A DNA stretch of 64,000 bases from Diploptera punctata. Taxonomy: Eukaryota > Arthropoda > Insecta > Blattodea > Blaberidae. Made by a program: the position numbers and the translations under genes. Location of the stretch: the NCBI GenBank assembly GCA_030220185.1, contig JASPKZ010007301.1, positions 124,001 through 188,000 on the forward strand. Reading direction: 5' to 3'. The notes beneath the pieces are model-generated. The model made no database searches. It was given only the letters and a program-made list of their open reading frames with translations, and was not told the DNA's origin. Below, piece by piece: positions 32,149 through 55,110 of the stretch; position 1 is the first letter of the stretch, and every line of letters begins with the position of its first letter.

Positions 32149-32525
32149 TATATCATAAACCAATTAAGTAATTATAAATAAATAAAAGTTGTTAATAGTG
32201 AGTGGAGAACTTATTTTTAACGACTCACCTCATATAATTTCAAATTTCTTTGATACCGGCGATTTCAGACAATATCTTGTCCCTCTTCAGTCATGGTTTC
32301 CACTGATGAAATTCTATGGTTGTTGATTTCTCTAAGGACACCACCTCTTGTGCTGCCATCTTTGGTTGGGATTATAAACTTTGTAATTCAATTTTTATCC
32401 ACCAGAATATCGAAGTTCATAGATCGATATTTATTCTTCTGAATGAATATCTTTTCCCAAATTGTCAATTCCAACGGTTTATCCAATTGTTTCAAAAGTT
32501 TTGCCTCTTGTTCAATTTTATGATG
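32149..32525 (-). mobile_element. Penelope-like element 3' end (left copy of a 377-bp duplication)
   Basis: Minus strand encodes the region after the GIY-YIG core (EKEAKLLKQLDKP-like, TIWEKIF-like, MNFDIPVDKNLITKF-like), then a hammerhead core (32254-32290) and the end TATATGAGGTGAG. The whole 377-bp block recurs at 33889-34265 with about 3% differences, and a LINE-A sits between the two. Confidence 0.85.
32254..32290 (-). ncRNA. Hammerhead ribozyme core in PLE end
   Basis: Minus strand: box CTGAAGA, stem II GACA/TGTC around a short loop, GAAA, a 3-bp stem III (ATC/GGT, one wobble), then cleavage triplet GTA. PLEs are known to carry minimal hammerheads in their terminal repeats. Stem I is weak (TGA/TCA). 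Confidence 0.7.
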
Positions 32526-33888
32526 ATGTGGGATCACTTTACATTTAAAACTGATTGCAACAACTACAGGGGCATCTCATTACTTTCAACTTCGTACAAA
32601 ATTCTAACAAATATATTAATAAGCAGACTTACTCCCTATATTGATGACATTCTAGGAGATCATCAATGTGCATTTAGAAGAAACAGGTCTACAACAGATC
32701 AGATTTTTAGTATAAGACAGATTTTAGAAAAGAAATGGGAATATAATGGTACTGTACATCAACTATATGTAGACTTCAAAAAAGCATATGATTCAATTAA
32801 GAGGGAGAAGTTATATAGTATCCTGCTGGAGTTCGGAATTCCTAATAAGTTAGTTAGACTTATACGAATGTGTCTAAATGGCTCAAAGAGTAGGGTGCGT
32901 GTAGGCAAACAGTTTTCAGACACTTTTGAAATCCAGAATGGGTTGAAGCAAGGAGATGCACTATCTCCTCTACTATTTAATTTTGTACTAGAGCATGCCA
33001 TTAACTCTTTAGAGAATGAGGAAGGCTTACAACTGAATGGTATTAATAAGCTGTTAGTTTATGCTGATGATGTAGTACTACTGGCCGATAGCGAGGAGAT
33101 ACTAAAGGCCAACACGCACACACTATTGAGTAACACTAAGAAATTGGGACTGGAAGTAAATATCAGTAAAACTAAATATATGGTCACACGTAGAAATTCA
33201 GTATATAATGGAAATGGACAGCTAATGACAAATGAGGGAAATTTTGAGGAAGTGGTTGAATTCAGGTACATAGGAACAATAATCACAAATAGAAATGAGA
33301 TGCACAAAGAAATTAAACATAGGCTCAATTCTGGAAATGCATGCTATTATGCATTGCAGAGACTTTTGATGTCCCAACTCCTTTCAAAAAACGTTAAGCT
33401 GAAAATATATAAAACTATTATTCTACCAGTTATATTATATGGGTGCGAAACATGGACTCTTACTTTAAGGGAGGAAAGGAGATTACGAGTATTTGAGAAT
33501 AAAGTTCTTAGGAAAATTTTTGGACCAAAGAGAGATGAACAGACAGGTGAATGGAGAAGACTTCATAACAATGAACTACATGGTCTTTATAGGAAGCCAG
33601 ATATAATAAAAACAGTTAAGTCTCGTAGACTGCGATGGGCAGGACATGTTGCGCGTATGGGGAATGAAAGACGTGCATGGAAACTTCTTGTAGGAAAGCC
33701 AGAAGGAAAACGCCCAGTTGGTAGACCAAGAATGAGGTGGGAGAACAATATTAACTATGATTTGAGGGAAGTAGATTATACAGGGAATGATTGGAAAGCA
33801 TTAGCTCAGGATAGGGATGTATGGAGAGCTTATGTCCGCGCGGCCATGAACCTACGGGTTTGATAGTGCCAGTGAGTAAGTAAGTAAG
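32526..33888 (+). CDS. LINE-A reverse transcriptase, best-preserved copy (5'-truncated)
   Basis: A single open frame runs to the stop at 33863. True LINE sequence starts near residue 77 of the 515-codon frame that opens at 32316; earlier residues are antisense PLE. RT motifs in order: NNYRGISLL, LGDHQCAFRRNRSTTDQIF, YVDFKKAYDS, NGLKQGDALSPLLFN (about residue 209) and YADDVVLLAD (YADD at 249-252, catalytic Asp pair). The common C-terminus follows: LPVILYGCETW, FGPKRDEQTGEW, RWAGHVARMGNERRAWKLL, NLRV-stop. A (GTAA)n tail ends the element. The endonuclease domain is absent. Clade is uncertain; the tetranucleotide tail suggests an RTE-like element. Confidence 0.85.
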
Positions 33889-34343
33889 TATATCATAAAC
33901 CAATTAGGTAATTATAAATAAATAAAAGTTGTTAATAGTGAGTGGAGAACTTGTTTTTAATGACCCACCTCATATAATTTCAAATTTCTTTGATACCGGC
34001 GGTTTCAGACAATATCTTGTCCCTCTTCAATCATGGCTTCCACCGATGAAATTCTATGGTTATTGATTTCTCTAAGGACACCACCTCTTGTGCTGCCATC
34101 TTTGGTTGGGATTATAAACTTTGTAATTCAATTTTTATCCACCGGAATATCAAAGTTCATAGATCGATATTTATTCTTCTGAATGAATATCTTTTCCCAA
34201 ATTGTCAATTCCAACGGTTTATCCAATTGTTTCAAAAGTTTTGCCTCTTTTTCAATTTTATGATGTTCTAGCAAACTATGTGCAGCAATTGCTGATTTTT
34301 CAATTTCACAATTTTTAATATTTCTAAAATGTTCTTTATTCCG
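33889..34343 (-). mobile_element. PLE 3' end (right copy of the duplication, continuing further)
   Basis: Repeats 32149-32525 and continues through antisense EN sequence (SAIAAHS-like, RNIKN-like) until it meets an inverted copy at 34344. The hammerhead box here is TTGAAGA (first base changed), with GAAACC-GCC-GGTA intact at about 33994-34030. Confidence 0.85.
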
Positions 34344-34608
34344 GTGGATAAAAATTTAATTACAAAGTTTATAATCACAACCAAAGATGGCAGCACAAGA
34401 GGTGGTGTCCTTAGAGAAATCAACAACCATAGAATTTCATCAGTGGAAGCCATGACTGAAGTGGGACAAGATATTGTCTGAAACCGCCGGTATCAAAGAT
34501 ATTTGAAATTATATGAGGTGAGTCGTTAAAAATATATTCTCCACTCACTATTAATGATAAAACCTCATAATGTTTACTTCCCAATATTAATTTAAATATA
34601 AATAAAAG
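34344..34608 (+). mobile_element. PLE 3' end, plus-strand arm of a foldback
   Basis: Plus-strand copy of the same PLE end: antisense-to-sense turnover at CCGGTGGATAAAAATTTAAT, then ATGACTGAAGTGGGAC (box with last base changed), GAAACCGCCGGTATC, TATATGAGGTGAGTCG, and beyond it the AACCTCATAATGTTTACTTC motif that recurs at PLE borders. With 33889-34343 it forms a long palindrome. Confidence 0.82.
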
Positions 34609-34930
34609 TTGATCACTTTATTCAGATTGCACACTATTCAATTTAGATTACTAGTCTGTTCAATTATTGTTCTAAGTAGTACAACACAAGTTCAAAATTG
34701 TCATTCTGTAATTCTTCTGAAAAGTATATGTTAAGAGCTTGAATTCAGCGGAGCTATCTTCTGAATTAACCGTCCATTAAAATACAAGCAGTTAGAGTTC
34801 AGCTTTCAAAGCCAGTGGGTTAAATTAATGTGCTTACAAGCAGATTCATTCATTTATTCTCACTAGTAACAAGAAGAACACAACAAGACGCAAAGTAGCA
34901 TGAACTCTTGAAACTCATTGGATGATCGGT
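34609..34930 (-). other. Presumed 3' UTR/downstream region of HELQ
   Basis: Lies just after the HELQ stop on the minus strand. No other feature recognised. Confidence 0.45.
34853..34858 (-). promoter_or_regulatory. HELQ: Candidate polyadenylation signal for HELQ
   Basis: AATAAA on the minus strand, about 75 bp past the HELQ stop codon. Position and sequence fit; use of the site is inferred. Confidence 0.45.
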
Positions 34931-35002
34931 TTAAATATTCAAACCTTCAAGGACTTCCTCAGCTTCTTCTCGCAGATTATCTGCTTTCTGTTTCAGCATG
35001 AG
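34931..35002 (-). CDS. HELQ: HELQ last exon
   Basis: Minus-strand exon of 72 nt after an acceptor with a pyrimidine run (TTTTTTTTTTTACAG). It encodes LMLKQKADNLREEAEEVLEG then LNI and a TAA stop at 34931-34933. In vertebrate HELQ the C-terminus has the same pattern, with a lysine-glutamate-rich helix after a QIV-SAK motif. The preceding exon ends IVAAAK in phase 0, so the junction reads VAAAK-LMLKQ. Confidence 0.88.
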   Translation of the reverse strand, partial: LMLKQKADNLREEAEEVLEGLNI

Positions 35003-35035
35003 CTGTAAAAAAAAAAAAAGTAAAATAAGAATTTC

Positions 35036-35090
35036 AAATTATATCTGAAGAGAAAAATATATGCCTAGGCTGGGAATTGAACTCAGGACA
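35036..35090 (-). repeat. Fragment of a short tRNA-like repeat
   Basis: CTGAAGAGAAAAATATATGCC, then antisense T-arm TTGAACTCAGGAC. It matches the 3' part of the tRNA-like repeat at 57211-57284. Confidence 0.5.
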
Positions 35091-35104
35091 TTTAGTTTTA
35101 TACA

Positions 35105-35256
35105 TTAATGGCCTTAAAGTTTTCCTGACATTTGTCTTACAGGTGAGGAAAAACCCCTATAAAAACCTCACCCAGAAAAACTACCCAACCGAGGATCGAA
35201 CCCAGGCCCGCTGTATGACAAGGCAGCACGCTACCTCGAGACCACAGCTGTGGACA
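35105..35256 (-). mobile_element. SINE-1, 5' half
   Basis: Minus-strand SINE-1 containing the body start (GTGAGGAAAAACCCCTATAA) and the full tRNA head (GGATCGAACCCAGGCCCGC, CTACCTCGAGACCACAGC). The 3' half is missing. It lies in the last HELQ intron. Confidence 0.85.
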
Positions 35257-35780
35257 TGACAACATAATGGGAAAATAAATATTCATATATCTCAATTTGT
35301 GTAATTTTTTTATACTTATGACGTGTAGTCATTATCATCATCCATGCAAGTATTAGTCTCAAAGAAGAATTTTCCATCCAGCGCTTTTTTGGACCTCCCA
35401 GCGATCTTTTGCCTTGGGGGCAGTAGCGAAGTATAGCTTTTGGAATGATGTGTAGTAAATTTCAAAATAATCAGAACTGGCACAAAAAAAAAACATGGGT
35501 CCCCTTTTACCCTTAGAAAACATATAAGAAATTTAAACATTTTTAAAAATATGAGGTCAAAATTATCCAGAAAATTTAGACATATCTCATGTGGGGGTAC
35601 TATTTAGTCATTAGATGTGTCTACAGAAGATAATTATCTTTAATCTCAGATGTACTATATGACTGTATTTAATAAATGAGAAAATATGAGGACACATAAC
35701 AAGAAGAATATATTTAATAAACGAGACAACAATACTATGAACATAAGATCATACAAACATACAAAAACATAAATATGTAC

Positions 35781-35915
35781 CTTAGCTGCTGCAACAATTT
35801 GAGTGGCAACTTTCTTTGGCATATGATCAATTGAATTTACAATTTCTAATGGATTAGCATTTGCTATGTGCAGCAAAGATTTGTAGCCAGCTTTGTAAAG
35901 TTGTCTAGCACGTCC
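35781..35915 (-). CDS. HELQ: HELQ exon (helix-hairpin-helix region)
   Basis: A 135-nt minus-strand exon between TTCATTTCAG and GTACATATTT. It encodes GRARQLYKAGYKSLLHIANA, NPLEIVNSIDHMP and KKVATQIVAAAK. This is the DNA-binding helix-hairpin-helix-like stretch near the HELQ C-terminus (family pattern GRA-QLY-AGY-SL-H-ANA). Both ends are phase 0. It is the strongest single piece of evidence for the gene assignment. Confidence 0.93.
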
Positions 35916-36116
35916 CTGAAATGAAGACAAAATTAATACTGAGAAAACACGAAAAAAAAAAAAGCAAGTTGAATTTATTTCAATACATGAAAGAAGAGAG
36001 ATTGATTTCATGATAACACAAAAACTTTTTATTACTGTGAGACATTATATGAAACTGAATTGTTTTCACAAGACTGAAAAAATTAATAAACAGAACATTG
36101 TTTATTTTTTCTTTCA

Positions 36117-36207
36117 CTCACCTCATACTTCATAACTTCTCTCAGACCTGGGTTTCGTCACATCATTTGCGACATTCTCAATGCTGTGTCACGTTCACAC
36201 AGTGTCA
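36117..36207 (-). mobile_element. PLE terminal fragment
   Basis: CACCTCATACTTCATAAC to GTCACGTTCACA is the reverse complement of the end of the PLE at 38335-39018 (hammerhead-like variant box TTGAGAA, then GAAACCCAGGTC). It is joined head to head to a plus-strand PLE fragment. Confidence 0.75.
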
Positions 36208-36600
36208 TGTTCCTGAGATGAAAACTAGAGTGAAAGAACATCTAAGGAATGTCAAGAAAGGGGAAGTAGAAAAATCTGCAGTGGCTGCCCATGCAGGGTC
36301 TGAAAAACATCTTATCGAGAAAGAAGCTAAATTATTAAAACAAATAGAAAAACCAAAAGAACTTACTGTTTGGGAAAAGATCTACATTCAAAAGAGGGAA
36401 AAGAAGAAATTGATAAACTTTGAAATTCCCGGCGAGAATTACCCGGTTTCGAGGTTTTTCAGTCAGCCAATGGAAGGAGCGAAGGACAGCTCTTCAAGAT
36501 GACAGAACAACGGTCGTGATGATACTGAGGATGGAACAGAAACTATGTTCCGAAACTAGTTTATAGTCAAATAAGAACAATATGAGGTGAATGATAAAAA
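36208..36600 (+). mobile_element. PLE GIY-YIG C-terminal part and 3' end
   Basis: Plus-strand frame reads MKTRVKEHLRNVKKGEVEKS, HAGSEKHLIEKEAKLLKQI, ELTVWEKIYIQ and NFEIPGENYPVSRFF, the part of the PLE endonuclease after the YIG motif. A hammerhead core follows at 36525-36568, then CAATATGAGGTGA. The RT domain and first half of the endonuclease are missing. Confidence 0.85.
36525..36568 (+). ncRNA. Hammerhead ribozyme core in PLE end
   Basis: CTGAGGA; stem II GGAACA/TGTTCC (6 bp); GAAA; stem III ACTA/TAGT (4 bp, loop GTTTA); cleavage triplet GTC. This is the best-paired stem II and III of the set. No convincing stem I was found. Confidence 0.78.
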
Positions 36601-36707
36601 TTCTACCTTAATGAATATATCTCATAGTGAGAATTCCTAAAATAAGTGATATATCTAATGTTATTACAAAGTATAATGGACTTTAATAGGATTGAATTTG
36701 AGTTTTA

Positions 36708-36780
36708 TTTTGACTCACCTCATATTTCTTGATTTTTATGCAGACTCGAGTCTGCATAAAACCTGATAGTGTTATTGCCT
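36708..36780 (-). mobile_element. PLE terminal scrap
   Basis: GACTCACCTCATATTTCTTG is the reverse complement of the usual TATGAGGTGAGTC end. It is followed by a small palindrome (ATGCAGACTCGAGTCTGCAT). No coding part. Confidence 0.6.
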
Positions 36781-37570
36781 ACCTAACTAACTAACTAACT
36801 CACTGGCACTATCGAACCCGTAGGTTCATGGCCGCACGGACATAAGCTCTCCATACATCCCTAACCTGAGCCAATGTTTTCCAATCATTCCCTGTATAAT
36901 CTACTACCCTCAAATCATAGTTAATGTTATTCTCCCACCTCATTCTTGGTCTACCAACTGGGCATTTTCCCTCTGCCTTTCCTACAAGAAGCTTCCATGC
37001 ATGTCTTTCATTCCCCATTCGTGCCACATGTCCTACCCATCGCAGTCTACAAGACTTAACTGTTCTCATTATATCTGACTTCCTATAAAGACCATGTAAT
37101 TCATTGTTATGTAGTCTTCTCCATTCACCTGTCTGTTCATCTCTCTTTGGTCCAAAAATATTTCTAAGAACTTTATTCTCAAACACCCGTAATCTCCTTT
37201 CCTCCCTTAAAGTAAGAGTCCATGTTTCACATCCATATAATATAACTGGTAGAATAATAGTTTTATATATTTTCAGTTTAACGTTTTTTGAAAGGAGTTG
37301 GGAAGTCAATAGTCTCTGTAATGCATAATAGCACGCATTTCCATAATTGAGCCTATGTTTAATTTCCTTGTACATCTCATTCCTACTTGTGATTATTGTT
37401 CCTAGGTATTTGAATTCAGCCACTTCTTCAAAATTTCCCTCATTTGTCATTAACTGTCCATTTCCATTCTATAATGTATTTCTATGTATGATCATACATT
37501 TAGTTTTATTGATATTTACTTCCAGTCCCAATTTCTTAGTGTTACTCAGTAGAGTGGTCATTGTCTACCT
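36781..37570 (-). mobile_element. LINE-A, 213-codon open remnant
   Basis: Minus-strand copy with a (TAAC)n tail. An uninterrupted frame at 36809-37450 runs from MTNEGNFEEVAEFKYLGTI through LYGCETWTLTLREERRL and FGPKRDEQTGEW to NLRVR-stop. It begins downstream of the RT catalytic motif. Lies in a HELQ intron. Confidence 0.9.
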
Positions 37571-37837
37571 ACATAATTTAATAGAATTACTATTCTCCAG
37601 AACCAAACCTGGGTGAATTTATAAATTGATTGTCAGGGATAAATTTATAAATCCACAGTATTATTGACTATAATATCATGTGCAGTTAATAAAAGAAATA
37701 TTATGTAAGTTAATCCTAATTGCATAAGGAATTAAAAATTAAAAGGGAGAGTAAAAAAGTATTTAACTCAGAATAACACAAAATGACATTTTATAGATTT
37801 GGGAATTTTTAACATTATGAGGTTTAATTCATGAGAA
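37571..37837. other. No feature recognised
   Basis: AT-rich intronic DNA. The stretch TTTGGGAATTTTTAACATTATGAGG at its right side recurs at 61820, so it belongs to the border of the next PLE-derived foldback. Confidence 0.45.
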
Positions 37838-38234
37838 TTAAATGAATCGTGATTTCTTCTTACCTCATACTTCTATGTTTTTTAAACACAGCACTGCAGT
37901 ATCAGCAACCATCGTCACCACGTCAGTTGTTTTCACGACTGTCAATTTTTTCTTTTTTCAGTAATTATCCAAACTGCCATCTGGTGTTCTTTTGAAGGAA
38001 TCATTTTCTAAACTGCCATCTGTTCTTCAAAAATACAACAGATGGCAGTTTAGAAAATGATTCCTTCAAAAGAACACCAGATGGCAGTTTGGATAATTAC
38101 CAAAAAAATAAAAAAATGTACAGTCGTGAAAACAGCTGAGAATGGTGACGATGGTCGCTGATACTGCAGTGCTGTGTTTAAAAAAAACATAGAAGTATGT
38201 GGTAAGAAGAAATCACGATTCATTTAATTCTTAC
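37838..38234. repeat. PLE-end foldback
   Basis: Near-perfect inverted arms of about 190 bp around TTCTTCAAAAATACAA. Each arm runs from GAATCGTGATTTCTTCTTAC through the CACTGCAGTATCAG variant hammerhead to a 39-bp-type coding repeat (FKRTPDGSLE). It is two copies of the 3' end seen at 39841-40110, facing each other. Confidence 0.9.
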
Positions 38235-38334
38235 AAAATTACATTTTTATTTTAAAAAAATGTAACTATCATTCTTGAGAATAGACAATTTTTTGCTGTT
38301 GGCCATTGACATATAAATAAATTAAGTTATGTAG

Positions 38335-39018
38335 ATAGGAAATAACACTATGAGAACAAAAAATGATTAATGAAAGTACTCTTCAGACAGATAAAAATAT
38401 TGGTAAAAAATTCAAGAAGTTCACATACCATCCTTTAGTATTTGACAAGTTTCAAAAAATCTTCAACAAATTCAACATTAAATTAGCACCGAAAAATGAT
38501 TACAGCTTAGGTAATTTAATAAAAACCAACAAAAATGCAAAGATTGAAGACTGCAAAAAATCAGGAATTTATCAAATTAATTGTAAAGATTGTGAAAAGA
38601 TATACATAGGAAAAACAAAAATGAATCTAAATACAAGATTAAAGGAACACCTCAGAAATGTTAAAAATGGAGAAACCTAAAAATCTGCAATAGCTGCACA
38701 CGCCTGGTCAGAAAAACATAGAATAGAAACCAAAACAAAATTACTTAAACAATTGGAAAAACTGAAGGAACTCACAATTTGGGAAAAAATTTACATATGC
38801 AATAATGAAAATACAACCATGAATTTTGAAATACCCGGTTGTAAGGAGAGAGGACTGATTTGGAAGTTCGTCGGTCAGCCATCAGATGGCGCAGAGGTCA
38901 GTCTGCAGGATAGAAGGCAGCCGGACGTCAGTTGTGAACGTGACACAGCATTGAGAATGTCACAAAGGATGTGATGAAACCCTGGGTCTGCTAGGAGTTA
39001 TGAAGTATGAGATGAGTG
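38335..39018 (+). mobile_element. PLE with GIY-YIG endonuclease, one stop
   Basis: Starts near GGAAATAACACTATGAG. It then encodes KKFTYHPLVFDKFQKIFNK, IKLAPKNDYSLGNL, KSGIYQINCKDCEKIYIGK (GIY-YIG with its CxxC zinc pair), LNTRLKEHLRNVKNGET, stop, KSAIAAHAWSEKH, ELTIWEKIYI and NFEIPGCKERGLIWKFVGQP. The end has a hammerhead-like variant (TTGAGAA box, GAAACCCTGGGTC) and AAGTATGAGATGAG. No RT domain. A close copy is at 46015-46487. Confidence 0.88.
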
Positions 39019-39061
39019 AAATAAAAAATAAACAATATAAATAAATTATTACAGAACTCAC

Positions 39062-39175
39062 TCTTTTTACAGCTGGTAGATCCATCAAAGGTAGCAGTTC
39101 GGCAGTACAACAATGAGAAAGTTGTTGTGAAAAATTAACCAGCAGTTCTTTAAAAGCCCAAAAATCTTTTATCTC
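39062..39175 (-). CDS. HELQ: HELQ exon
   Basis: A 114-nt minus-strand exon between TTTGTCTTTCAG and GTGAGTTCTG. It encodes EIKDFWAFKELLVNFSQQLS, HCCTAELLPLMDL and PAVKR. In HELQ this segment (E-FW-Y-LL, then C-AEL-PLM) directly precedes the GRA-QLY motif. Both ends are phase 0. It lies only about 45 bp from the PLE end upstream. Confidence 0.9.
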
Positions 39176-39359
39176 CTGAAAGACAAAAATAAAGTGAGAT
39201 AAAAACAAATCAATACAAATATTAAAGTGAGGAGATCAATGTTAAAATTAGAGGTCAGACTGCAGACCACATCTATGTGCACTTTAATTTAATCCTCCTG
39301 TAACAAATTCAAAATTACGATTACTACATTCAAAAGTCAAAATCATATAACTTTAAAAA

Positions 39360-41345: not shown

Positions 41346-41373
41346 TTATTTATGGAATAATAAGTTTATATTT

Positions 41374-41557
41374 TATATTATTTTTAGTCTGGACATCTTA
41401 CCTCAATATTAATGTTGATTTGTTCTTGGACATGTTTCAAAACAATTCTGTTTTATCGTCAGCTTTCCCAGACGATAAAACAGAATTGTTTTGAAACATG
41501 TCCAAGAACAAATCAACATTAATATTGAGGTAAGATGTCCAGACTAAAAATAATATA
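41374..41557. repeat. Perfect 87-bp palindrome of PLE ends
   Basis: Arms 41374-41460 and 41471-41557 are exact inverted copies by eye, separated by AGCTTTCCCA. Each arm ends in a hammerhead core and contains ATTGAGGTAAGATG. The lack of differences between arms suggests a recent origin or ongoing correction. Confidence 0.92.
41429..41462 (-). ncRNA. Hammerhead ribozyme core in palindrome
   Basis: Minus strand: CTGACGA, stem II AAAACA/TGTTTT (6 bp, loop GAAT), GAAA, stem III ACATGT (3 bp), cleavage triplet GTC. The plus-strand mirror at 41469-41502 differs only in its box (CAGACGA) because the first bases fall in the spacer. Confidence 0.72.
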
Positions 41558-41766
41558 ATTAAAATAACCTCAAAATATAACTTCCTAAAATTAAATATTA
41601 AGTTTATATGTGTTTCTGAGAACCTTTGTTTTATAGATGGTTCATTTCTCAATTTCATGATTTAAATGTTGGTATATCAAATTTAATACAGTACGATAAA
41701 ATCATTAATAGTGAGTGGAGAACATATTTTAATCGACTCACCTCATACATTTTCAAACTTCTTTGA

Positions 41767-41803
41767 TACCAATGGTTTCAGACAATATCATGTCCTTCTT
41801 CAG
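41767..41803 (-). ncRNA. Hammerhead ribozyme core in PLE end
   Basis: Minus strand: CTGAAGA, stem II GACA/TGTC, GAAA, stem III ACC/GGT with loop ATT, cleavage triplet GTA; TGA/TCA can start stem I. It lies in the longest PLE copy, about where PLE terminal repeats carry such ribozymes. Confidence 0.75.
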
Positions 41804-42235
41804 TCATGGCTTCCACTGATGAAATTCCGTGATTGTTGATTTCTTTAGTGACATCACCTCTTGTGCTGCCATCTTTCATTGGGATTATAAACTTTGTAAT
41901 TAAATTTTTATCCACCGGAATATCGAAATTCATAGATCGATATTTATTCTTCTGAATGAATATCATTTCCCAAATTGTCAATTCCAACGGTTTATCCAAT
42001 TGTTTCAAAAGTTTTGCTTCTTTTTCAATTTTATGATGTTCTAGTAAACTATGTGCAGCAATTGCTGATTTTTCAATTTCACAATTTTTAATATTTCTAA
42101 AATGTTCTTTAGTGCGTGTTTCCAAATTCGTTTTTGTTTTTCCTATGTATACTTTGCTACAATCATTACAATTAATTTGAATGTGGGACCAAGACAGTAA
42201 GGTAAAGGAAGGATTTATGCTTGGATGGGAAGGAA

Positions 42236-42309
42236 GCCTGGATTAGCTCAATGGTTAGAGCATCAGCACGGAAAGCTGAAGGTTCGGGGTTCGATTCCCG
42301 GTTCAGGCA
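42236..42309 (+). repeat. tRNA-like sequence with good cloverleaf, in PLE
   Basis: Acceptor GCCTGGA/TTCAGGC pairs over 7 bp (one wobble), D stem GCTC/GAGC, anticodon stem TCAGC/GCTGA, loop ACGGAAA, T loop TTCGATT. Position 33 is C instead of T, which argues against a functional tRNA. It interrupts the PLE at 41700-43060 and is followed by AAATTTTTCTCTTTACC, as in other short tRNA-like repeats here. Confidence 0.6.
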
Positions 42310-43332
42310 TAAATTTTTCTCTTTACCATTTGATTACAATAATTTAGTAGTGTACTTTAATATACTTATTTCAATCATAGTAACAGCTCTAGCTTCTTAA
42401 TATTAATTTAACAATTAATTTGATAAATTCCAGATTTCTTACTGTCTGGGATGTTGATTTTTTTATTGATATTTAAAAGTTTTTCCAGACTAAATTTATT
42501 AATTGGTGCCAAAGTAATGCCGTATTTGACAAATATTTTTTTGAAATTTCCCATGTACTATTGGATGGTAAGTAATTTTCTTGAAATTCTTCTTTTCTTT
42601 ACTAACAATTTGTAGGGTAGAGCATTCTTTAAGTTGTTTTATCTTTCTGAATTTCTTTAATTTGTTAGATATTATATTCTTATTAAAACCATTTAATCTG
42701 GCTATATTTATGATATTCTCGTATTCTTTCTTAAAATTGTCTCCTTTTAATGGGACCTTTATCAATCTATATAAGAGGCTATTAAATATTGCATGTTTAT
42801 GCGCCAGAGGATTGACAAGCCGTTGATTTAATATAATTATCAGTATGTGTACCCTTCCTACATACATCAAATTCAATTTTTTGAGTTTTTTCATTCCTAA
42901 TTATGTATAAATCCAGAAACAGAATTTTGTTTTCAATTTCTGATTCTATGGTAAATTTAATTGATACATCTTGTAGATTAAGTAATTTCAATGCATCATC
43001 AACATGTTTAAAATTTATTATCGAAAAAATATCATCAACACTATTAATGATAAAACCTCATAATGTTTACTTCCCAATATTAATTTAAATATAATGATAA
43101 AATTATTTTGAGTTCATTTTTAAAGCAGTCTTTGCTTACTTCTTGCTACAAAAAGTCAAGAGATTTTTTGGTATATCAAATTTAATACAGTACAATAAAA
43201 TCATTTTGAGTTCATTTTTAAAGCAGTCTTTGCTTACTTCCTGCTACAAAAAATTAAGAGATTTTCATTCTACATAAAAACCACATATATTTTTTAAAGA
43301 TAACAAAAGTTTAATAATTAGATTGTAAATAC

Positions 43333-43549: not shown

Positions 43550-43990
43550 TAGGAAGTAACATTACAAGGTTCTTTTTAATATAAATGTGAGTTGTTTACA
43601 TCTTACCTCATAATTTAATTGTTTTCACGAGAACATGTTTCAATAAGTGTGCATATTAACTGCAATCAAAATCAAAGAGGGAAGTAACACTATGAGGTAT
43701 TTACATTAATGAATGACTTGGAGAAAATGCTTTAACATCTCACCTCATAAAGTTGTCTTCACGATACCAGTTTCAAAAGTATAATTTTATTTCCATCTTC
43801 AGTCAAACTCCAATTGAGTTGGAGCAACTTTATGAGGTGAGATTTTAAAACATTTTCTCCAACTCATTCATTAATATAATCTTTCAGCTCGTTCAGATAA
43901 ACTAAAGATAATATGCATGCATAATGAAACATGCTCTCATGAAAACAACTAAATTATGAGGCAAGATGTAAAAAGATTCATATTTATATT
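43550..43990. repeat. Two nested PLE-end foldbacks
   Basis: The outer pair is 43590-43640 with 43925-43980 (TTACATCTTACCTCATAATT and its reverse). The inner pair is 43730-43765 with 43825-43875 (TCTCACCTCATAAAGTTG and its reverse). Border motifs GGAAGTAACATTACAAGG and GGAAGTAACACTATGAGG precede each. A weak hammerhead lies at 43765-43802. Confidence 0.82.
43765..43802 (-). ncRNA. Hammerhead-like core, weak stem II
   Basis: Minus strand: CTGAAGA, then a poorly paired stem II region, GAAA, stem III AC/GT, triplet GTA. The conserved core is intact but folding is doubtful. Confidence 0.45.
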
Positions 43991-48045: not shown

Positions 48046-48267
48046 GTAAAGAAGTTTTAAGATCCCCATGAACCACTCATCAGCTTCACTGTTACACTTT
48101 ATATTTACAGAAAAATTAAAATTAATAAGAACATGTGAGAAACTCCAAGTTGTAAAATAATTAAATGAATGCAGTGATAGAATGCAGATAATCATCAAGG
48201 TTGAGAACACATATTTTATCAGATCATAACAATCTTTTTTTTTAAATACAATAGGAAGTAAGACTAA

Positions 48268-48831
48268 GGGTTGTATCTATGAACGCATTAGACCGTAAAA
48301 GTCGTTCTCAGCTTGTACTCTGCTGAGAAAGTTGCATCCAAAGACGTTTCTGCAGTACTCAAAAATCTGTTCATGCGATAATAATTGCCAAAATTCCTAA
48401 GCTACCTGGCGAGGTGACTTTGCAGAGAACGAATCGTGAGCAACCCAATGGGAACCGATGTACTTTGAAACCTTGCTGCTTTATCCAAGATGTCGGACCT
48501 TGAAGACTTTGATCATGTTCTTGGTATATGCGGAGAAGAGGAAAAGAGTCTACCAAAGAATTCAACTGGAAGAACAGGAAAACCGGCATAATATCGTGCG
48601 ATGCAGACGTCGTACACAGTTTTATTTGTGGGATGCAAGCGTAAATGCGTTTCTCTAGCAGACGAAAATATCGGAAGTGATTTTATCACTGAGAATTCTG
48701 GGTAATTTCTTGCCAATATTACGAAAAAAACTACTTTCATGCATGACCAGTCAGCTACTCGCTAATTCGAACTTTGCACGTTCTCACGGAAAACTCAGCT
48801 CACCAGAGACTAATGTATTTGCATGCAGCCC
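48268..48831 (+). mobile_element. PIF/Harbinger-like non-autonomous element
   Basis: Ends GGGTTGTATCTATGAACG and, reverse complement, GGGCTGCATGCAAATAC; both arms continue to CATTAG. TAA is duplicated at 48265-48267 and 48832-48834, the 3-bp target typical of PIF/Harbinger. Inside, a short frame MSDLEDFDHVLGICGEEEK and, after a shift, RVYQRIQLEEQENRHNIVR look like a transposase N-terminus; that protein match is only an impression. The catalytic part is absent. Confidence 0.65.
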
Positions 48832-48842
48832 TAAGAGGTTTG

Positions 48843-48985
48843 TTTAATAATTAAAACATTTTGTCTCTTCATTCTTACCTCTTATAGTTGTTTTTGTCGA
48901 ACATATGTTTCAGGACTTTTTAGCCCCATCGTTAGCAATTACAGACTGAGGTAAGAATGAACAGACAAAATGTTTTAATTACATA
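48843..48985. repeat. PLE-end foldback with damaged hammerhead
   Basis: Arms TTTTGTCTCTTCATTCTTAC (left) and GTAAGAATGAACAGACAAAA (right). In between, the minus strand reads CTAACGA, stem II GGGGC/GTCCT, GAAACATATGTTC: box damaged at one base. Confidence 0.72.
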
Positions 48986-49299
48986 ACAATCTTGTTAGAG
49001 ATATTAGCGTTTTTCAGATAATGTTGGCTTAATTGATGAGTTTGGATTATTCTTATTTCAGTCACTACAGATTAAACTTTACAATCATTTTGATTTACAT
49101 ATATACTGTTTTTTATCTTTCAGTAAACATCAGTTTATGATTACAGCACTATAAAATGGATTACTGTAGTCAAAATTGGTTTTCATTCATATAGAAAATG
49201 TAACCTTAGGATGGGTGAATGGTTTATTAGGAACTTTTGAATAGAATATTTATACAGTATATAAGAGAAAAATATTTTTATCATAAATGAATTATGGGA

Positions 49300-49605
49300 A
49301 ATAATATTAAGAGGTTTTACAAGTTAATAACTAACAAAAAGTGAGTCGTATCTCACCTCATACTTCATGTTCTTTAAACACAGAACCGCAGTTTCTGGAG
49401 GCATCTCTCCCATCTTTACCCATCTTTACGATTGTTGAATTCTGGTCTATAACTTTGAAGATGAAGATGTAAACCAGAATTCAACAGTCATAAAGATAGC
49501 TGAAGATGGGAAGGATGCCTCCAGAAACTGCAGTTCCATGCTTGAAGAACAAGAAGTATGAGATTAGATACAACTCACTTTTTATTAGTTATTAAGAAAA
49601 ATATT
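49300..49605. repeat. PLE-end foldback
   Basis: Preceded by GGGAAATAATATTAAGAGG. Arms at about 49345-49450 and 49465-49575 (GTATCTCACCTCATACTTC, CTGGAGGCATC, AATTCTGGT and reverses). The plus arm keeps a hammerhead core at 49500-49535. Confidence 0.82.
49500..49535 (+). ncRNA. Hammerhead ribozyme core in PLE end
   Basis: CTGAAGA, stem II TGGG/TCCA with an inner GG/CC, GAAA, stem III ACTGCAGT (3 bp), triplet GTT. Core complete, stems short. Confidence 0.55.
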
Positions 49606-49889
49606 TGCCTAAACTAAGATTTTAACCCAATAATATATATATATATACCCTTTTTTCTCTTAAAATTCCTAATTATCTTAGTAACCCAAAAAAAAAAGCC
49701 TCAAAATTCAACTTGAAAACGTGTTGTGGCTTAATTTGCCATGTGGTTTTTAAAAAGTAGTATTTCATTGCAAGTAAACACTAATAGTAAATATGTAAGT
49801 AATATTTTTATTTAATTATGTTCTTTAATTATTCATGCCTTTAGTGTCATAATTCAAATTTGAGTGTGAAAGGGCCAAAAAACTTTGCT

Positions 49890-50095
49890 CAGATATATCA
49901 TATTTCAGGCTTGAGGTTCTTTAATGTGCCTTAAATTTATGATAGGATTCATTGGCTTTACTTCCCGTCCAAAGGAAGCCATACTGAAAATTTTTGCACT
50001 CTTACAAATCCATTGGCCCCAGCCAGTTTGAATCCACAAACCTCAGAACTATATATCAACATGGCGATCACTAGTCCTTAGAATCAAACAAATAT
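49890..50095 (-). mobile_element. SINE-4 (tRNA-headed)
   Basis: On the minus strand: GGACTAGTGATCGCCATG (A box), TTTGTGGATTCAAACTGGC (B box), CTTCCTTTGGACGGGAAGTA and AAGCCAATGAATCC. The last two phrases resemble a widespread insect SINE body. One copy only. Confidence 0.65.
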
Positions 50096-50765
50096 AGCAT
50101 CGTAAAATCCATAATGACAACACAGATGGCAGTGAATAAGACAATGGAAATGTGTTAAGTGGCAGTATACTCTACCATTTAAGAAAAAAGAAGATAAATA
50201 TGTAAGATAACTTTTCTTTTCTTAAAATCTTTGATTATTAAATTTTATTTTATATTCAAATTCTTAGAATATGGCTTATTTTGGGTCAATATGATAATTA
50301 GTGAATTAAATTTGAAATGTAAAAGTCAACCTTCTAAACACATGAATTAATTGTTTTCCTGTAAGTTCTAAGGAAAATGCATATTTTTTTACAGGACATA
50401 TTTTGAGAATTGATGTGTTTGCAATGAAAAGATAAAAACAAAAAAAAAAATCTTATTGTGACAATTTATTTCCTTTGTTGCTATGTTACTATGCAACATA
50501 ATGTGTTAAAAGTTATAAATAAGATGTAAATGTCAGATTTAAATTAAAGTAAATGAGTGTTAACTGCAGAAAAACAAAAATCATCATTTTCCATACAAGT
50601 ATAAGAGCTGGTGACTTGTTACGATCTCAAGGTAGGATTTTCAATCCATCTATTTCCCATATGGCCTAAATAACTCTTTCCATGTGGATGGTTGTGAAGC
50701 ATGGCTTTTGAGATTCTATTTTCGGACATATGTTGTACATGAGTTTTCCAATTGCACTGGTACTT
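50096..50765. other. No feature recognised
   Basis: AT-rich intronic DNA without recognised elements. Confidence 0.4.
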
Positions 50766-50858
50766 GTTTTCCTAGTAAAGCTACAAAGCATAGCATGAAA
50801 ATACTATGATTGCAATGAAAGACCTGCCCTCAGGCAGAATTACTATGGATGGCTGTAT
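50766..50858 (+). mobile_element. SINE-1 3' end fragment
   Basis: CTTGTTTTCCTAGTAAAGC, GATTGCAATGAAAGACCTGC, CAGGCAGAATTACTATGGAT: the 3' module of SINE-1 only. Confidence 0.8.
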
Positions 50859-50936
50859 AATAGAAATTATGAATGTAAATGCAAATATAATAAGTTTTAT
50901 CTGTTTAATTCTTACCTCATATCATTCTTTCTGTTA

Positions 50937-50972
50937 GACATATGTTTCAAGGCACGTTTGCCTCATCTTCAG
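50937..50972 (-). ncRNA. Hammerhead ribozyme core, left arm
   Basis: Minus strand: CTGAAGA, stem II AGGC/GCCT with a 6-nt loop, GAAA, stem III ACATATGT (3 bp), triplet GTC. Stem I can pair TA/TA and CTGT/ACAG around a 3-nt bulge. Confidence 0.78.
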
Positions 50973-51229
50973 TAGTTACAGACTGATTTTTCGCAAATTG
51001 TCAGCCCTGGATCTCGACTTCTGCTCGCTCTTTCTGTGGTCCAAAGAATTTGTTAATTAGATTCCTCTCCCCAAGAATTTCAAAATTCATAATTCTCTCC
51101 TTGTTCTTCTGTATGTAGATTTTTTACATCATTTTGTGTTTTCTAACTGTTTTAATAATTTTGTGTTTTCTGATCAAACGTGAGCAGCTACTGCAGATTT
51201 TTCTACTGGGAAAAATCAGTCTGTAACTA

Positions 51230-51265
51230 CTGACGATGAGGCTAATATGCCTTGAAACATATGTC
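51230..51265 (+). ncRNA. Hammerhead ribozyme core, right arm
   Basis: CTGACGA, stem II AGGC/GCCT, GAAA, stem III ACATATGT, triplet GTC. Same stem I as the left-arm copy (CTGT-AAC-TA with TA-ACAG). The loop of stem II differs from the left arm, so the two are not exact mirror images. Confidence 0.78.
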
Positions 51266-51339
51266 TAACAGAAACAATGATAGGAGGTAAGAATTAAACA
51301 GACCAAACTATTACTATTACTATTAAGTAAAACTTCTCG

Positions 51340-51380
51340 AATCTTGGTCTGGGCAAAAATTTTTCTCTTCAAATATAATG
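51340..51380 (+). repeat. 3' scrap of a short tRNA-like repeat
   Basis: AATCTTGGTCTGGGCAAAAA then TTTTTCTCTTCAAATATAAT, matching the end of the tRNA-like sequence at 51568. Confidence 0.5.
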
Positions 51381-51567
51381 TATCCTTCAGTGAGAATTGT
51401 TAAATTAATAATAAAAACATCAATAGAAGCCCTACTGGCTTTATAAAGTAGTGTTTATATTCCCAATAAATGTCTTCTTAACTAAGAAGATAGAAGCAAA
51501 GGCTTCATAGCATTTGGTGCTGGGATTACAACATATATGAGAGAAATTTGTATCTAGATTTGAACTC

Positions 51568-51641
51568 ACTCCAGTAGCTCAGATGGTAGAGCATTTGGCC
51601 TGGCAAGCCAAAGGTCCCGGGTTAGAGTCTCGGTGTGGGCA
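51568..51641 (+). repeat. tRNA-like sequence
   Basis: D arm GCTC/GAGC, anticodon stem TTGGC/GCCAA with loop CTGGCAA, T arm CCGGG/CTCGG with loop TTAGAGT. The acceptor stem barely pairs. ATTTTTCTCTTCAAATATAAT follows, the shared tail of this repeat group. Confidence 0.55.
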
Positions 51642-51968
51642 AACATTTTTCTCTTCAAATATAATGTAACTTCCTATTGTATTTTCAAATAAATGCAAAT
51701 ATTGAGTAAATAAATACACAAAGGAAAAAAGGTAGCTATAAATACGCAATCTAATGAAAATTTACAACATCTGCATTTGAATTCAAGCATAGATATGGAA
51801 GTGGGAGACAATAAACAATCATACAACACATATCTCCACCAGCACACTACAAGTAACATAATTCCTCGACTGAATCATAAGATTTAACAATTATAAAAAG
51901 GCAAATACATAGATATTTATATTACAGTTATAGAAATAATGAGATACTTGTAACAAAAATTTACTCAC

Positions 51969-52125
51969 CACTGAAACATATGTAGAAGTGTTTGGCTTAA
52001 CATGACTTATAAGATCGTAAGGTGTGACTAAATATAAAAGATGCAAACAAGTTACTAAAACAAGACTGTTCTGAGCTTGAAGTAATCTTGATACAAAGTG
52101 TGAGCACGACTTAAATGTATACAAC
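51969..52125 (-). CDS. HELQ: HELQ exon with probable 1-base deletions
   Basis: A 157-nt minus-strand exon between TTGTTTTGTTGCAG and GTGAGTAAAT. Most of it encodes LLQAQNSLVLVTCLHLLYLV then TPYDLISHVKPN, a signature HELQ stretch (LVL---LHL-YL-TPYDL). The first 40 nt read better in another frame, CIHLSRAHTLYQD, which fits the family pattern before LLQAQ. One missing T near 52085 would join the two frames, and one more base is missing at the junction with the upstream exon. Either the gene is broken here or the assembly has homopolymer errors. Confidence 0.85.
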
Positions 52126-52486
52126 CTGCAACAAAACAAACTCTTTATGCTGCATGTAAGTTCACCAAAAATAAATTAAAATATTTATAAAGACTGTGGC
52201 TTGGTAGCGATGGATTAAAGTTTGATAAAAGTTTTCTAGTATCCAGTATCAATCACTTAAGTATTTTTTAATTATAAATATATGTGTGTTAATTATTTAA
52301 AAACTTTGGTGGTTCTGTTATCTGTGAGTCATCCCGAACCTTAAGAACCATCTCTAAATGAATATTTCTATACCTATGAGCAAAGAAAATTATGAAAAAG
52401 AATACATAATTAATGTTGCAATAGATAAGGTTAGGAAGAAAATATGGTATACAAGAAAATAAATAGATTTAAAAGACAAGAATTAA

Positions 52487-53192
52487 TTAATGAAAGCACT
52501 AAGAAATTAGGACTGGAAGTAAATATCAATAAAATTAAATATATGGTCACACGTAGAAATTCATTATATAATGTAAATGGACAGCTAATGACAAATGAGG
52601 GAAATTTTGAGGAAGTGGCTGAATTCAAATACCTATGAACAATGATCACAAATAGGAATGAGATGCACAAAGAAATTAAACATAGGCTCAATTCTGGAAA
52701 TGCATGCTATTATGCATTGCAGAGACTCTTGATGTCCCAACTCCTTTCAAAAAACGTTAAACTGAAAATATATAAAACTATTATTCTACCAGTTATATTA
52801 TATGGGTGCGAAACATGGACTCTTACTTTAAGAGAGGAAAGGAGATTACAAGTATTTGAGAATAAAGTACTTAGGAAAATTTTTGGACCAAAGAGAGATG
52901 AACAGACAGGTGAATGGAGAAGACTACAAAACAATGAACTACATGGTCTTTATAGGAAGCCAGATATAATAAGAACAGTTAAGTCTCGTAGACTGCGTTG
53001 GGCAGGACATGTTGCACGTATGGGAAATGAAAGACTTGTATGGAAGCTTCTTGTAGGAAAGCCAGAGGGAAAACGCCCAGTTGGTAGACCAAGAATGATT
53101 GGAAATCATTAGCTCAGGATAGGGATGTATGGAGAGCTTATGTCCGTGCGGCCATGAACCTACGGGTTCGATAGTGCCAGTGAGTAAGTAAG
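52487..53192 (+). mobile_element. LINE-A, 5'-truncated
   Basis: Plus-strand copy from KKLGLEVNINKIKYMVTRR through YGCETWTLTLREERRL, FGPKRDEQTGEW and GKPEGKRPVGRPRM. A 60-bp deletion then joins to TTAGCTCAGGATAGGG and the GTAAGTAAGTAAG tail. Two pieces, 52444-52638 and 52642-53112, are separated by one stop. Confidence 0.9.
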
Positions 53193-53204
53193 TAAGTACA
53201 CTTA

Positions 53205-53317
53205 TAAAACAAACAGCAAAAATAAAATTCAAGAAGTTCACTTACCATCCATTGAAACACCACAAGTTGGCACCGAAGAACGAATACAGCCTTAATAGTT
53301 TGAGTTTGTATTTTTTA
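53205..53317 (+). mobile_element. PLE fragment before the LINE-A insertion
   Basis: KIKFKKFTYHPLKHHKLAPK-like coding (the conserved FTYHP block of these PLEs), then AACATTCTTACCTCA that continues after the LINE-A at 53661. Confidence 0.65.
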
Positions 53318-53331
53318 ACATTCTTACCTCA

Positions 53332-53660
53332 CTTACTTACTTACTCACTGGCACTATCGAACTCGTAGGTTCATAGCCACACGGACATAAGCTCTCCATA
53401 CATCCCTATCCTGAGCTAATCCTTTCCAATCATTCCCTGTATAATCTACTTCCCTCAAATCATAGTTAATATTGTTCTCCCGTCTCATTCTTGGTCTACC
53501 AACAGGGCGTTTTCCTTCTGGCTTTCCTACAAGAAGTTTCCATCCACGTCTTTCATTCCCCATATGCGCAACATGTCCTGCCCATCGCAGTCTATGAGAC
53601 TTAACTGTTATTATATCTGGCTTCGTATAAAGACCATGTAGTTCATTGTTATGTAGTCTT
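53332..53660 (-). mobile_element. LINE-A inserted in a PLE end, 14-bp duplication
   Basis: Minus-strand LINE-A 3' end, (ACTT)n tail to TGTAGTCTT. An open 69-codon stretch at 53354-53563 ends NLRVR. ACATTCTTACCTCA is present at 53318-53331 and 53661-53674, so the insertion split the PLE terminus exactly. Confidence 0.92.
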
Positions 53661-53900
53661 ACATTCTTACCTCATATGTTTATTTTGTTGGACGATCGTT
53701 TCAAAGCTATTGCTCCATCTTCAGCTTGTCCCAAACTAGTTTTTTTCTTTTCTTCAAGTTGCCGGCCCTGGATCTGTGTTCCAAAGAACTTGGTAATGAG
53801 GTTCCTTTCTCCGGGAATTTCAAAGTTCATAATTTTCTCCTTGTTCTTCTGTATATAGATTTTTTCCCCATATTATGAATTCATTGGTATTTTCTAACTG
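53661..53900 (-). mobile_element. PLE 3' end with hammerhead
   Basis: Minus-strand: MNFEIPGERNLITKFFGTQI-like coding, then a hammerhead at 53691-53724 and CATATGAGGTAAGAATG. It faces the plus-strand PLE ends at 53935-54590. Confidence 0.82.
53691..53724 (-). ncRNA. Hammerhead ribozyme core
   Basis: Minus strand: CTGAAGA, stem II GGAGC/GCTTT (two wobbles), GAAA, stem III ACG/CGT (palindromic ACGATCGT), triplet GTC. Confidence 0.7.
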
Positions 53901-53934
53901 TTTAATAATTTTGTATTTATATCTATTTTATGTT

Positions 53935-54590
53935 GAAGAAATGTAATAAAAAAGGGTGAAGTAGAAAAATCTGCAGTAGCAGCTCATGTTTGGACAGAGA
54001 AACACAAAATAGATATAAATACAAAATTATTAAAACCGTTAGAAAATACCAATGAACTCACAATATGGGAAAAAATCTATATACAGAAGAACAAGGAGAA
54101 AATTATGAACTTTGAAATTCCTGGAGAAAGGAGCCTCATTACCAAGTTCTTTGAAACACAGATCCAGGGCTGACAACTTGAAGAAAAGAAAAAACCATTG
54201 AAGAAATGTAAAAAAGGGAGAAGTAGAAAAATCTGCAGTAGCAGCTCATGTTTGGACAGAGACACACAAAATAGATATAAATACAAAATTATTAAAACAG
54301 TTAGAAAATACCAATGAACTCACAATATGGGAAGAAACATCTACATACAGAAGAACAAGGAGAAAATGATGAACTTTGAAATTCCCGGAGAAACGAAAGC
54401 CTCATTACCAAGTTCTTTGGAACACAGATCCAGGGTCGCACAACTTGAAGAAAAGAAAAAACCAGTTTGGGACAAGCTGAAGATGGAGCAATAGCTTTGA
54501 AACAATCGTCCAACAAAATAATATATCAGGTAAGAATGTTAAAAAATACAAACTCAAATATTAAATTAAACCTCATAATGAAACTTCCTA
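53935..54590 (+). mobile_element. Two tandem PLE 3' segments
   Basis: The same block, AAGAAATGTAA, EVEKSAVAAHVWTEKHKI, LENTNELTIWEKIYIQKNKE, MNFEIPGERSLITKFFETQI, occurs at 53935-54180 and again at 54200-54440. The second copy has frameshifts but continues into a hammerhead (54477-54510), TATCAGGTAAGAATG and the AACCTCATAATGAAACTTCC border motif. Confidence 0.85.
54477..54510 (+). ncRNA. Hammerhead ribozyme core
   Basis: CTGAAGA, stem II GGAGC/GCTTT, GAAA, stem III only AC/GT (ACAATCGT), triplet GTC. Mirror partner of 53691-53724 with one change in stem III. Confidence 0.65.
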
Positions 54591-54599
54591 ATGATTTAA

Positions 54600-55110
54600 A
54601 AAAAACAGCCTTAATAGGATAATGAAAACTAATAAAAAAATGAAAAAATGGAAGAAGAAAACAAATCAGAAATTTATCAGATCAAATGCAGGGATTGTGA
54701 CAAAATTTATATGGGAAAAACAAAAATAAATTTGAAAACAAGGGTGAAAAAACATCTTAGAAATGTCAAAAATGGAGAAGTGGAAAAGTCAGCAATAGCT
54801 ACTCATGCTTGGCCCTAAAAACATTGAATTGAATCAAAAGCTAGTCTAATTAAACAAATAGATAAACATAAAGGAACTCACGGTTTGAGAAAAAATCGAC
54901 ATTGAGAAAAACAAAGAAAGAAAACTTATGAACTTCGAAATTCCTGCAAATTCTGACCTGATCCAGAGGTTCATCGGTCCATCAAAAGAGGGAAGAAGTG
55001 GTTCTTCCGATCGACATAACATCAGTCGGAAAAATAGTACTGAAGATGGATTCACCATGAACCTGAAATCGCGATCTACTTAGAAGATCAATTATGAGGA
55101 AAGGTATGAA
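54600..55110 (+). mobile_element. PLE GIY-YIG region and 3' end
   Basis: Plus strand: SEIYQIKCRDCDKIYMGKTK (CxxC; YIG reads YMG, GIY reads EIY), LKTRVKKHLRNVKNGEVEKS, AIATHAW, then broken frames. A hammerhead at 55040-55076 and ATTATGAGGAAAGG close it. Confidence 0.83.
55040..55076 (+). ncRNA. Hammerhead ribozyme core
   Basis: CTGAAGA, stem II GGATTC/GAACCT (one mismatch), GAAA, stem III ATC/GAT (ATCGCGAT), triplet ATC. Confidence 0.62.

Follow-up and report, generated by a model that had tools for sequence, protein, structure and literature searches.

Putative minimal hammerhead ribozymes at the ends of Penelope-like elements in the genome of the cockroach Diploptera punctata

Short motifs with the shape of a hammerhead ribozyme core occur repeatedly, and on both strands, in a stretch of 64,000 nucleotides from the cockroach Diploptera punctata (contig JASPKZ010007301.1, positions 124,001 to 188,000; the whole stretch is called the window in the following). 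The question raised by this locus is what these motifs are and what they may do for the elements which carry them. The original prediction placed at least eleven of them, eleven being listed, at the ends of Penelope-like elements (PLEs), and all eleven were found at the given coordinates and strands when these were read back from the sequence. Each has CTGANGA, a stem II, GAAA, a short stem III and an NUH triplet, in the order of a type I hammerhead. The clustering of hammerhead cores at PLE ends is hereby confirmed as an observation. Our interpretation, to which we assign a probability of roughly 0.88, is that the sites are minimal type I hammerheads located in the pseudo-long terminal repeat (pseudo-LTR) module of PLEs coding for a GIY-YIG endonuclease (EN) in the cockroach genome, and that they are predicted to cleave. 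The eleven sites are listed here with the search that finds them (a strict descriptor, or a covariance model called A5 with its expectation value, E; both are described below).

32254..32290, minus strand: hammerhead core, family A, stem III word ATCGCCGGT; descriptor and A5 model (E 7.7e-6); EN coding extends into the core.
36525..36568, plus strand: hammerhead core, family F, with a stem III able to form an ordinary hairpin of 4 bp with a 5-nt loop; descriptor and A5 model (E 1.6e-3); EN coding overlaps.
41429..41462, minus strand: hammerhead core, stem III word ACATGT, arm of a foldback insertion; descriptor and A5 model.
41767..41803, minus strand: hammerhead core, family A, ACCATTGGT; descriptor and A5 model; the GIY-YIG open reading frame (ORF) 41778-42239 terminates within the core.
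43765..43802, minus strand: hammerhead core, family C, solo arm; descriptor and A5 model (E 3e-5).
49500..49535, plus strand: hammerhead core, family G, ACTGCAGT, arm of the foldback insertion 49278-49594; descriptor and A5 model.
50937..50972, minus strand: hammerhead core, family D, ACATATGT, forming the left arm of an outward pair; descriptor and A5 model (E 1.9e-7); EN coding upstream.
51230..51265, plus strand: hammerhead core, family D, right arm, pairs with 50937..50972; descriptor; E 6.7e-7.
53691..53724, minus strand: hammerhead core, family E, ACGATCGT, left arm; A5 model; EN coding overlaps.
54477..54510, plus strand: hammerhead core, family E, right arm, same insertion as 53691..53724; descriptor and A5 model; EN coding upstream.
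55040..55076, plus strand: hammerhead core, family H, ATCGCGAT, bulged stem II; A5 model (E 0.032); EN coding upstream.

Could such motifs be chance matches in AT-rich repeats? The strict descriptor (CTGANGA, a stem II of at least 3 contiguous pairs, GAAA, a stem III of at least 2 pairs, NUH) yields 11 distinct window sites, ten of which are in the list and one of which lies at 12127-12173 on the minus strand, compared to an average of 1.27, and at most 5, over 100 first-order Markov sequences. The site at 55040 on the plus strand is missed because its stem II, judged by eye, is bulged. When stem II is ignored and CTGANGA is to be followed at 42-66 nt by TATGAGGTRAG with at most 2 mismatches, the window gives 14 matches, which are all eleven sites and three ends with GATA for GAAA (39924 and 61951, minus strand; 62177, plus strand), against an average of 0.15 and at most 2 in the Markov sequences. 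All eleven cores thus directly precede a conserved motif, as had been claimed.

The A5 model was built from an alignment of 26 copies, all from outside the window, one of which (L079) belongs to the same family as the minus-strand site ending at 41462. It recovers the eleven sites, ten of them with E from 1.9e-7 to 1.6e-3 and the one at 55040 with E 0.032. At E <=1 it has 26 matches in the window, and the other 15 include PLE ends absent from the original prediction, whose site count was too low: at least nine further PLE ends carry decayed or variant cores. What speaks for chance is that the hammerhead models of Rfam release 15 had no match in the whole window even at E 10 and none on short stretches covering four of the sites, and that the strict-descriptor match at 12127, which has no end motif, has a core (12146-12173, minus strand, E 0.0048) that outranks the site at 55040 in the A5 model; this core is probably a chance match. 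A check with hammerhead covariance models therefore fails with the stock Rfam models (0/11) and succeeds with the family-specific one (11/11), and the minimal PLE hammerheads would seem to lie beyond the reach of the curated models. In the 3.12-Gb genome assembly the pattern CTGAAGATGGN{8,30}GAAAC has 13,527 exact matches and the reversed pattern 35. These counts, the Markov controls, the A5 model and the stem II covariation described below rule out a chance origin of the eleven as a set, and we consider its probability negligible.

About 100 of the 13,527 genomic places were listed and 89 loci (L numbers) were fetched. The first 80, with or without the window, underlie the statistics on stems II and III, hairpin, orientation and partner arms, and all 89 plus the window went into a test of terminal duplications. 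It should be noted that the 103 fetched ends include one end (L057) twice.

Do the cores belong to PLEs? The association of minimal type I hammerheads with PLEs is supported by the coding sequence next to them.

41778..42239, minus strand: PLE coding sequence for a GIY-YIG endonuclease (Pfam PF01541, 24.5 bits at a cut-off of 22.6).

The closest named relatives of this endonuclease are D. punctata proteins with up to 72% identity, and the window at 38354-38971 matches a D. punctata protein at 92%. At seven of the eleven sites EN coding either overlaps the site or ends upstream of it at a distance of about 80 nt or less; the remaining four are solo arms. The script alone names four sites (41462 and 50972, minus strand; 54477 and 55040, plus strand), and the count of seven is reached by giving the match at 41462 to the neighbouring element and adding by eye four sites where coding overlaps the core. 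Upstream of the family C site in L018 there is an ORF which by eye resembles the region between reverse transcriptase (RT) and EN; it matches the window at 42411-42949, upstream of the EN ORF, and has no Pfam family above cut-off. The RVT_1 match in the window is by eye a long interspersed nuclear element (LINE). PLE relatives were also looked for in viral and prokaryote collections, where one search gave two loci (L001, L002) and another none; the first 600 bases of L001 look by eye like a phage-type GIY-YIG gene, and it was rejected as a PLE relative.

If the cores were kept as RNA structures, stem II should vary in sequence and stay paired, as the original prediction maintained. At least 4 contiguous stem II pairs are found in 79% of the 77 distinct segments among the fetched ends, against 18.5% after shuffling. 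In alignment A4, which holds 31 equal-spacing copies, 5 of them from the window, 87.6% of the stem II cells are paired, compared to 62.7% in shuffled alignments and 16-53% in slid registers, and 62 cells carry a double change, compared to 25; none of 500 shuffles reaches either value, and the covariation score exceeds them all. The A5 alignment behaves in the same way (87.8% paired, 47 double-change cells against 21, 0/500 shuffles). Three of five covariation measures exceed all shuffles in both alignments. The compensatory change in A4 and A5 bears out the claim, and stem II pairing is under selection. Between A9 and stem II there is an extra base, usually U, and A9-U-G forms AUG in eight of the eleven sites.

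Stem III is of a different kind. It had been described as a stem of 2-4 bp, and as a monomer it is indeed short; more often it is a self-complementary word, fit for pairing between two RNAs. The word runs from A15.1 to U16.1 and is self-complementary in seven of the eight window families by Watson-Crick pairs, and in all eight if GU is allowed, against a background at all GAAA sites of the window of 7.4% (13.1% with GU) and at GAAAC sites of 12.5% (20/160, Watson-Crick). A perfect Watson-Crick palindrome of 6-10 nt occupies the stem III position in 60 of the 103 fetched ends, compared to 4.6% in shuffled sequences, and ten distinct words are found, for example ACCGGT, ACATATGT, ACGATCGT, ACTGCAGT and ACTAGT; many of the other 43 ends show by eye a one-base decay of the palindrome, often at CpG. 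The middle bases of a palindrome cannot pair within a hairpin and can pair between two RNAs, which makes these words suited to dimers. Two-strand folding, run without a shuffled control, placed stem III between the strands in 5 of 9 RNAs, and among these nine only the minus-strand site ending at 50972 gave a complete double hammerhead. Lunse and co-workers are said to have found that small hammerhead variants of this kind cleave as dimers. The palindromes, as modelled here, would agree with this published view, and the RNA may cleave mainly as a dimer joined via stem III.

What is the conserved motif downstream of the cores? It was called the end motif of the PLE; it is conserved and adjoins all eleven cores, and it is not the end of the element, since termini placed by target duplication lie 29-49 or 68-92 nt past the motif start in 26 of 29 pairs. 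The motif, TATGAGGT, is one arm of a hairpin. In 6 of 20 window ends the other arm, ACCTCATA, follows 35-43 nt downstream, with 8/8 pairs in four of them and 7 in two.

34512..34569, plus strand: tail-framing hairpin, example with TATGAGGT, a 42-nt loop and ACCTCATA.
48832..48884, minus strand: tail-framing hairpin, covarying form with TAAGAGGT, a 37-nt loop and ACCTCTTA.

Among the fetched ends the arms pair 8/8 in 14 of 103 (13 distinct; loops of 31-46 nt), against 0.13% of neighbouring 8-mers, and with at least 7 pairs in 33 (32 distinct), against 2.4%. TAAGAGGT and ACCTCTTA, a compensated pair of arms, are found at the window end 48935 (minus strand), in L015 and in L065. When 69 copies of families A, C, D and E are compared by eye they agree until just before the second arm, and past that point they diverge or run about 40 nt further. 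To judge from these patterns, the hairpin frames the known PLE tail and with it two alternative 3' termini, which match the optional PLE tail (PMC3846280) and the two start sites of reverse transcription in vitro (PMC11167929). A reading of the motif as a splice donor (ATGAG|GTRAG) was set aside as the less likely one, since the conservation of this arm is accounted for by its pairing with ACCTCATA and by the compensated forms. On the other side of the core, NCAGT begins 14-18 nt upstream in 12 of 17 ends (TCAGT in 7) and may be an initiator-like motif. Read in order, the module would then hold a CAGT resembling an initiator, some 15 nt of further sequence, the hammerhead core, the cleavage site and the hairpin TATGAGGT...ACCTCATA.

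Why do the cores occur on both strands? Among 98 adjacent end pairs in the loci and the window, overlapping loci being left in, 48 face outward, 23 inward and 27 are tandem, where random orientation would give 1/4, 1/4 and 1/2. Four insertions in the window are bounded by duplications.

33932..34597, no strand: double-ended PLE insertion, its left end being the short one and its right end the long one, with decayed cores TTGAAGA at 34030 (minus strand) and CTGAAGT at 34456 (plus strand); 14-bp duplications 33918-33931 and 34598-34611.
41372..41598, no strand: foldback PLE insertion; 11-bp duplications 41361-41371 and 41599-41609.
49278..49594, no strand: foldback PLE insertion; 12-bp duplications 49266-49277 and 49595-49606.
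53299..54604, no strand: double-ended PLE insertion, later split by a LINE; 13-bp duplications 53286-53298 and 54605-54617.

The truncated LINE at 53331-53660, which splits the tail of the family E left arm, seems by eye to have a target duplication of its own. At about 318-441 of L036 the stem II strands of an outward pair look, again by eye, recombined between two subfamilies, as by a template switch.

An exact terminal duplication of at least 10 nt was found for 30 of 146 candidate outward pairs (29 unique words), and to be held against this is that about 6 of the 30 would be expected by chance (control 4.1%). The duplications are 10-15 bp long, 10 being the floor of the search, and part of one word is common to two L011 pairs. 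One short (29-49 nt) and one long (68-92 nt) terminus are present in 26 of the 29 unique pairs, where an independent and even choice at each end would yield this in about half; two long-long pairs and one short-short pair break the rule, and the boundary of 62 nt was fixed after earlier termini and duplication results were known. When 44 unique outward pairs are classed by their motifs instead, 35 are long-short, 9 short-short and none long-long. In a hand-typed subset of 38 of the 44 (L006, L015, L037 and three window pairs dropped; L020 and L025 relabelled from short-short to short-long) a duplication of at least 10 nt was seen in 19, compared to 1.35% in crossed controls, and in 0/5 of the short-short pairs. 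The count we rely upon is the label-free one on all 146 candidates. In the window the rule holds in the four insertions above, and is less sure for the pair 50937/51230, the duplication of which is only 10 nt. From the sequences, then, the outward-facing pairs are single insertions with target duplications of 10-15 bp, and the data suggest a fixed short-long asymmetry for each insertion in a small sample that was mostly chosen by intact cores. Inverted pseudo-LTRs, an optional tail and a short target duplication, all of them seen here, are features by which PLEs are recognized.

This would be accounted for if the element cut the two strands of the DNA and primed reverse transcription on each of them, starting once at the near site and once at the far site. 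Priming on both strands would give two outward-facing ends and hence hammerheads on both strands. It is also conceivable, although we find it doubtful, that an insertion is built from two template RNAs linked by the palindromic stem III, one being primed per cut strand, with the hairpin assigning near and far start; the short-long rule (26/29) is observed and its tie to RNA dimers is conjectural. The hammerhead might then be a signal for dimer linkage first and a cutter only later. The dimer initiation site of retroviruses offers a parallel for such linkage.

The arrangement of the ends also bears on whether the units could be of the retrozyme type, i.e., small non-autonomous units which spread as circular RNAs made by the ribozyme, the PLE fragments being incidental. 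Metazoan retrozymes (PMC7229834) likewise have type I hammerheads in small units that are sometimes tandem; four of the eleven sites are solo arms that lack coding sequence, tandem neighbours are fairly frequent (27/98), and in L044 three hammerhead regions follow one another in a tandem array at a spacing of about 110 bp. However, seven of the eleven sites are joined to PLE endonuclease coding and belong to coding PLE ends, outward pairs exceed tandem ones (48 against 27), and the units of L044 begin, by eye, close to the initiator-like motif rather than at the cleavage site. Such an origin is in our opinion very improbable. The L044 array itself lies at 322-620, has one mutated core, and its units end by eye at the short terminus.

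Is cleavage then what makes the inserted RNA? If cleaved RNA were the template, copies should start at the cleavage site. In 32 partner arms no start falls within 5 nt of it, and a single arm starts at a distance of 6 nt; the 32 arms lack the exact intact core pattern, which favours arms stopping inside the ribozyme, several are not independent, and their BLAST starts are fuzzy by a few bases. In agreement with this, the in vitro system of the PLE PAc uses mainly unprocessed RNA as its substrate, and mutants of the ribozyme are still able to insert (PMC11167929). This argues against cleavage generating the 5' end of the template; the ribozyme most likely has its role in a different step, where it may work together with protein and as a dimer.

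The same observations can be taken further, to the view that the hammerhead shape is a relic or side effect in a region conserved for other roles (end of the endonuclease ORF, start codon, initiator, start signal for RT) and that the RNA no longer cleaves. In favour of this are the partner arms, the insertion-competent ribozyme mutants of the anole element, a GATA core common to three copies and the weak pairing of stem I. Against it, stems II and III stay paired while their sequences change and the core is fixed across families in the sampled copies. A change at C3/G8 has, moreover, occurred as a compensating U3-A8 pair with the stems retained.

38951..38988, plus strand: variant core TTGAGAA with U3-A8 replacing C3-G8; stems and GAAA retained.
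36145..36181, minus strand: U3-A8 variant core, second window copy.

Five distinct copies of this lineage (the two in the window, L013, L019 and L049) were found among ends with intact stem II, the same set having 92 rows of C3-G8, three of C3-A8 and three of U3-G8. GAAA and stem II are retained in all five, and the stem III word is by eye self-complementary in four, one of which needs GU. On balance we regard loss of cleavage as improbable.

Together with the silence of the Rfam models, some results must be weighed against our interpretation of the sites as cleaving hammerheads under selection. The number of further stem II pair types is unremarkable, being reached by 132 (A4) and 74 (A5) of 500 shuffles, and stem II pairs changed on both sides in A5 are reached by 321 of 500. 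Stem I has 0-3 contiguous pairs beside the core at the ten strict-descriptor sites, pairs no better than chance in eight family representatives (permutation p 0.51), and shows no significant covariation. The three GATA ends in the window (39924 and 61951, minus strand; 62177, plus strand) keep CTGANGA, and two of them also carry G at position 17, the cleavage position. GATA in place of GAAA is an expected inactive form, and this subfamily may have spread with an inactive core. Lastly, most fetched loci were picked by an intact core pattern and are uninformative on how often cores decay.

How do these hammerheads compare with known ones? The suggestion that the kind might be uncatalogued is not supported: PLE hammerheads with a reduced stem III have been described in print (Cervera and de la Pena 2014; Lunse et al. 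2017; both via PMC7761336 and PMC7229834). Core, type I order, reduced stem III, pseudo-LTR position and likely dimeric action are common to both. In the present copies the words in stem III are often perfect palindromes, of differing sequence, and an extra base, usually U, after A9 creates AUG. Replacement of C3-G8 by U3-A8, which was considered as a novelty, has already been reported in nature (Perreault et al. 2011, PMC3088659), whereas here it marks one PLE lineage.

PAc, a Poseidon PLE of Anolis carolinensis, likewise has a hammerhead at the junction between pseudo-LTR and ORF, where stem II opens with the start codon, as well as a pair of RT start sites explaining the tail, and both DNA strands cleaved and extended (PMC11167929); different here are the cockroach host, the many subfamilies and the one-short-one-long rule in genomic copies, a rule absent from the text of that paper covered here. 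The Penelope families of Adineta vaga have inverted pseudo-LTRs head to head, duplications of 8-10 bp and a 31-bp tail that is optional on one inverted pseudo-LTR (PMC3846280), whereas in D. punctata the duplications are 10-15 bp (floor 10) and just one of the two ends carries the tail in 26 of the 29 duplication pairs. A literature search on titles and the starts of abstracts, covering few subscription papers, gave no paper on PLE hammerheads in cockroaches, which does not imply absence from print. The association of hammerheads and PLEs was already known, and what the counts add, from a small sample, is that a short end is almost constantly combined with a long one.

A 3.12-Gb genome in which one core pattern has over 13,000 exact matches and target duplications can be recognized makes PLE insertion testable by counting. 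Among the things which can be counted are the starts of copies relative to the cleavage site, the use of both start sites per insertion, and changes of core and palindrome travelling together. Such copies offer useful material for studies of how PLE insertion works and of the reason why the elements retain a ribozyme.

Some other features of the window were observed. A tandem repeat with a unit of about 285 bp and at least 4 copies is located at 13034-14420, and an AT-rich repeat array with units of about 110-145 bp and an inverted copy near its end at 29088-31590. Two overlapping frames at 60371-61286 resemble, by eye only, a mariner-type transposase. tRNA-like matches are found at 22085-22156, 25262-25341, 42237-42308, 51568-51641 and 57211-57284, some of which are perhaps heads of tRNA-derived short interspersed elements.

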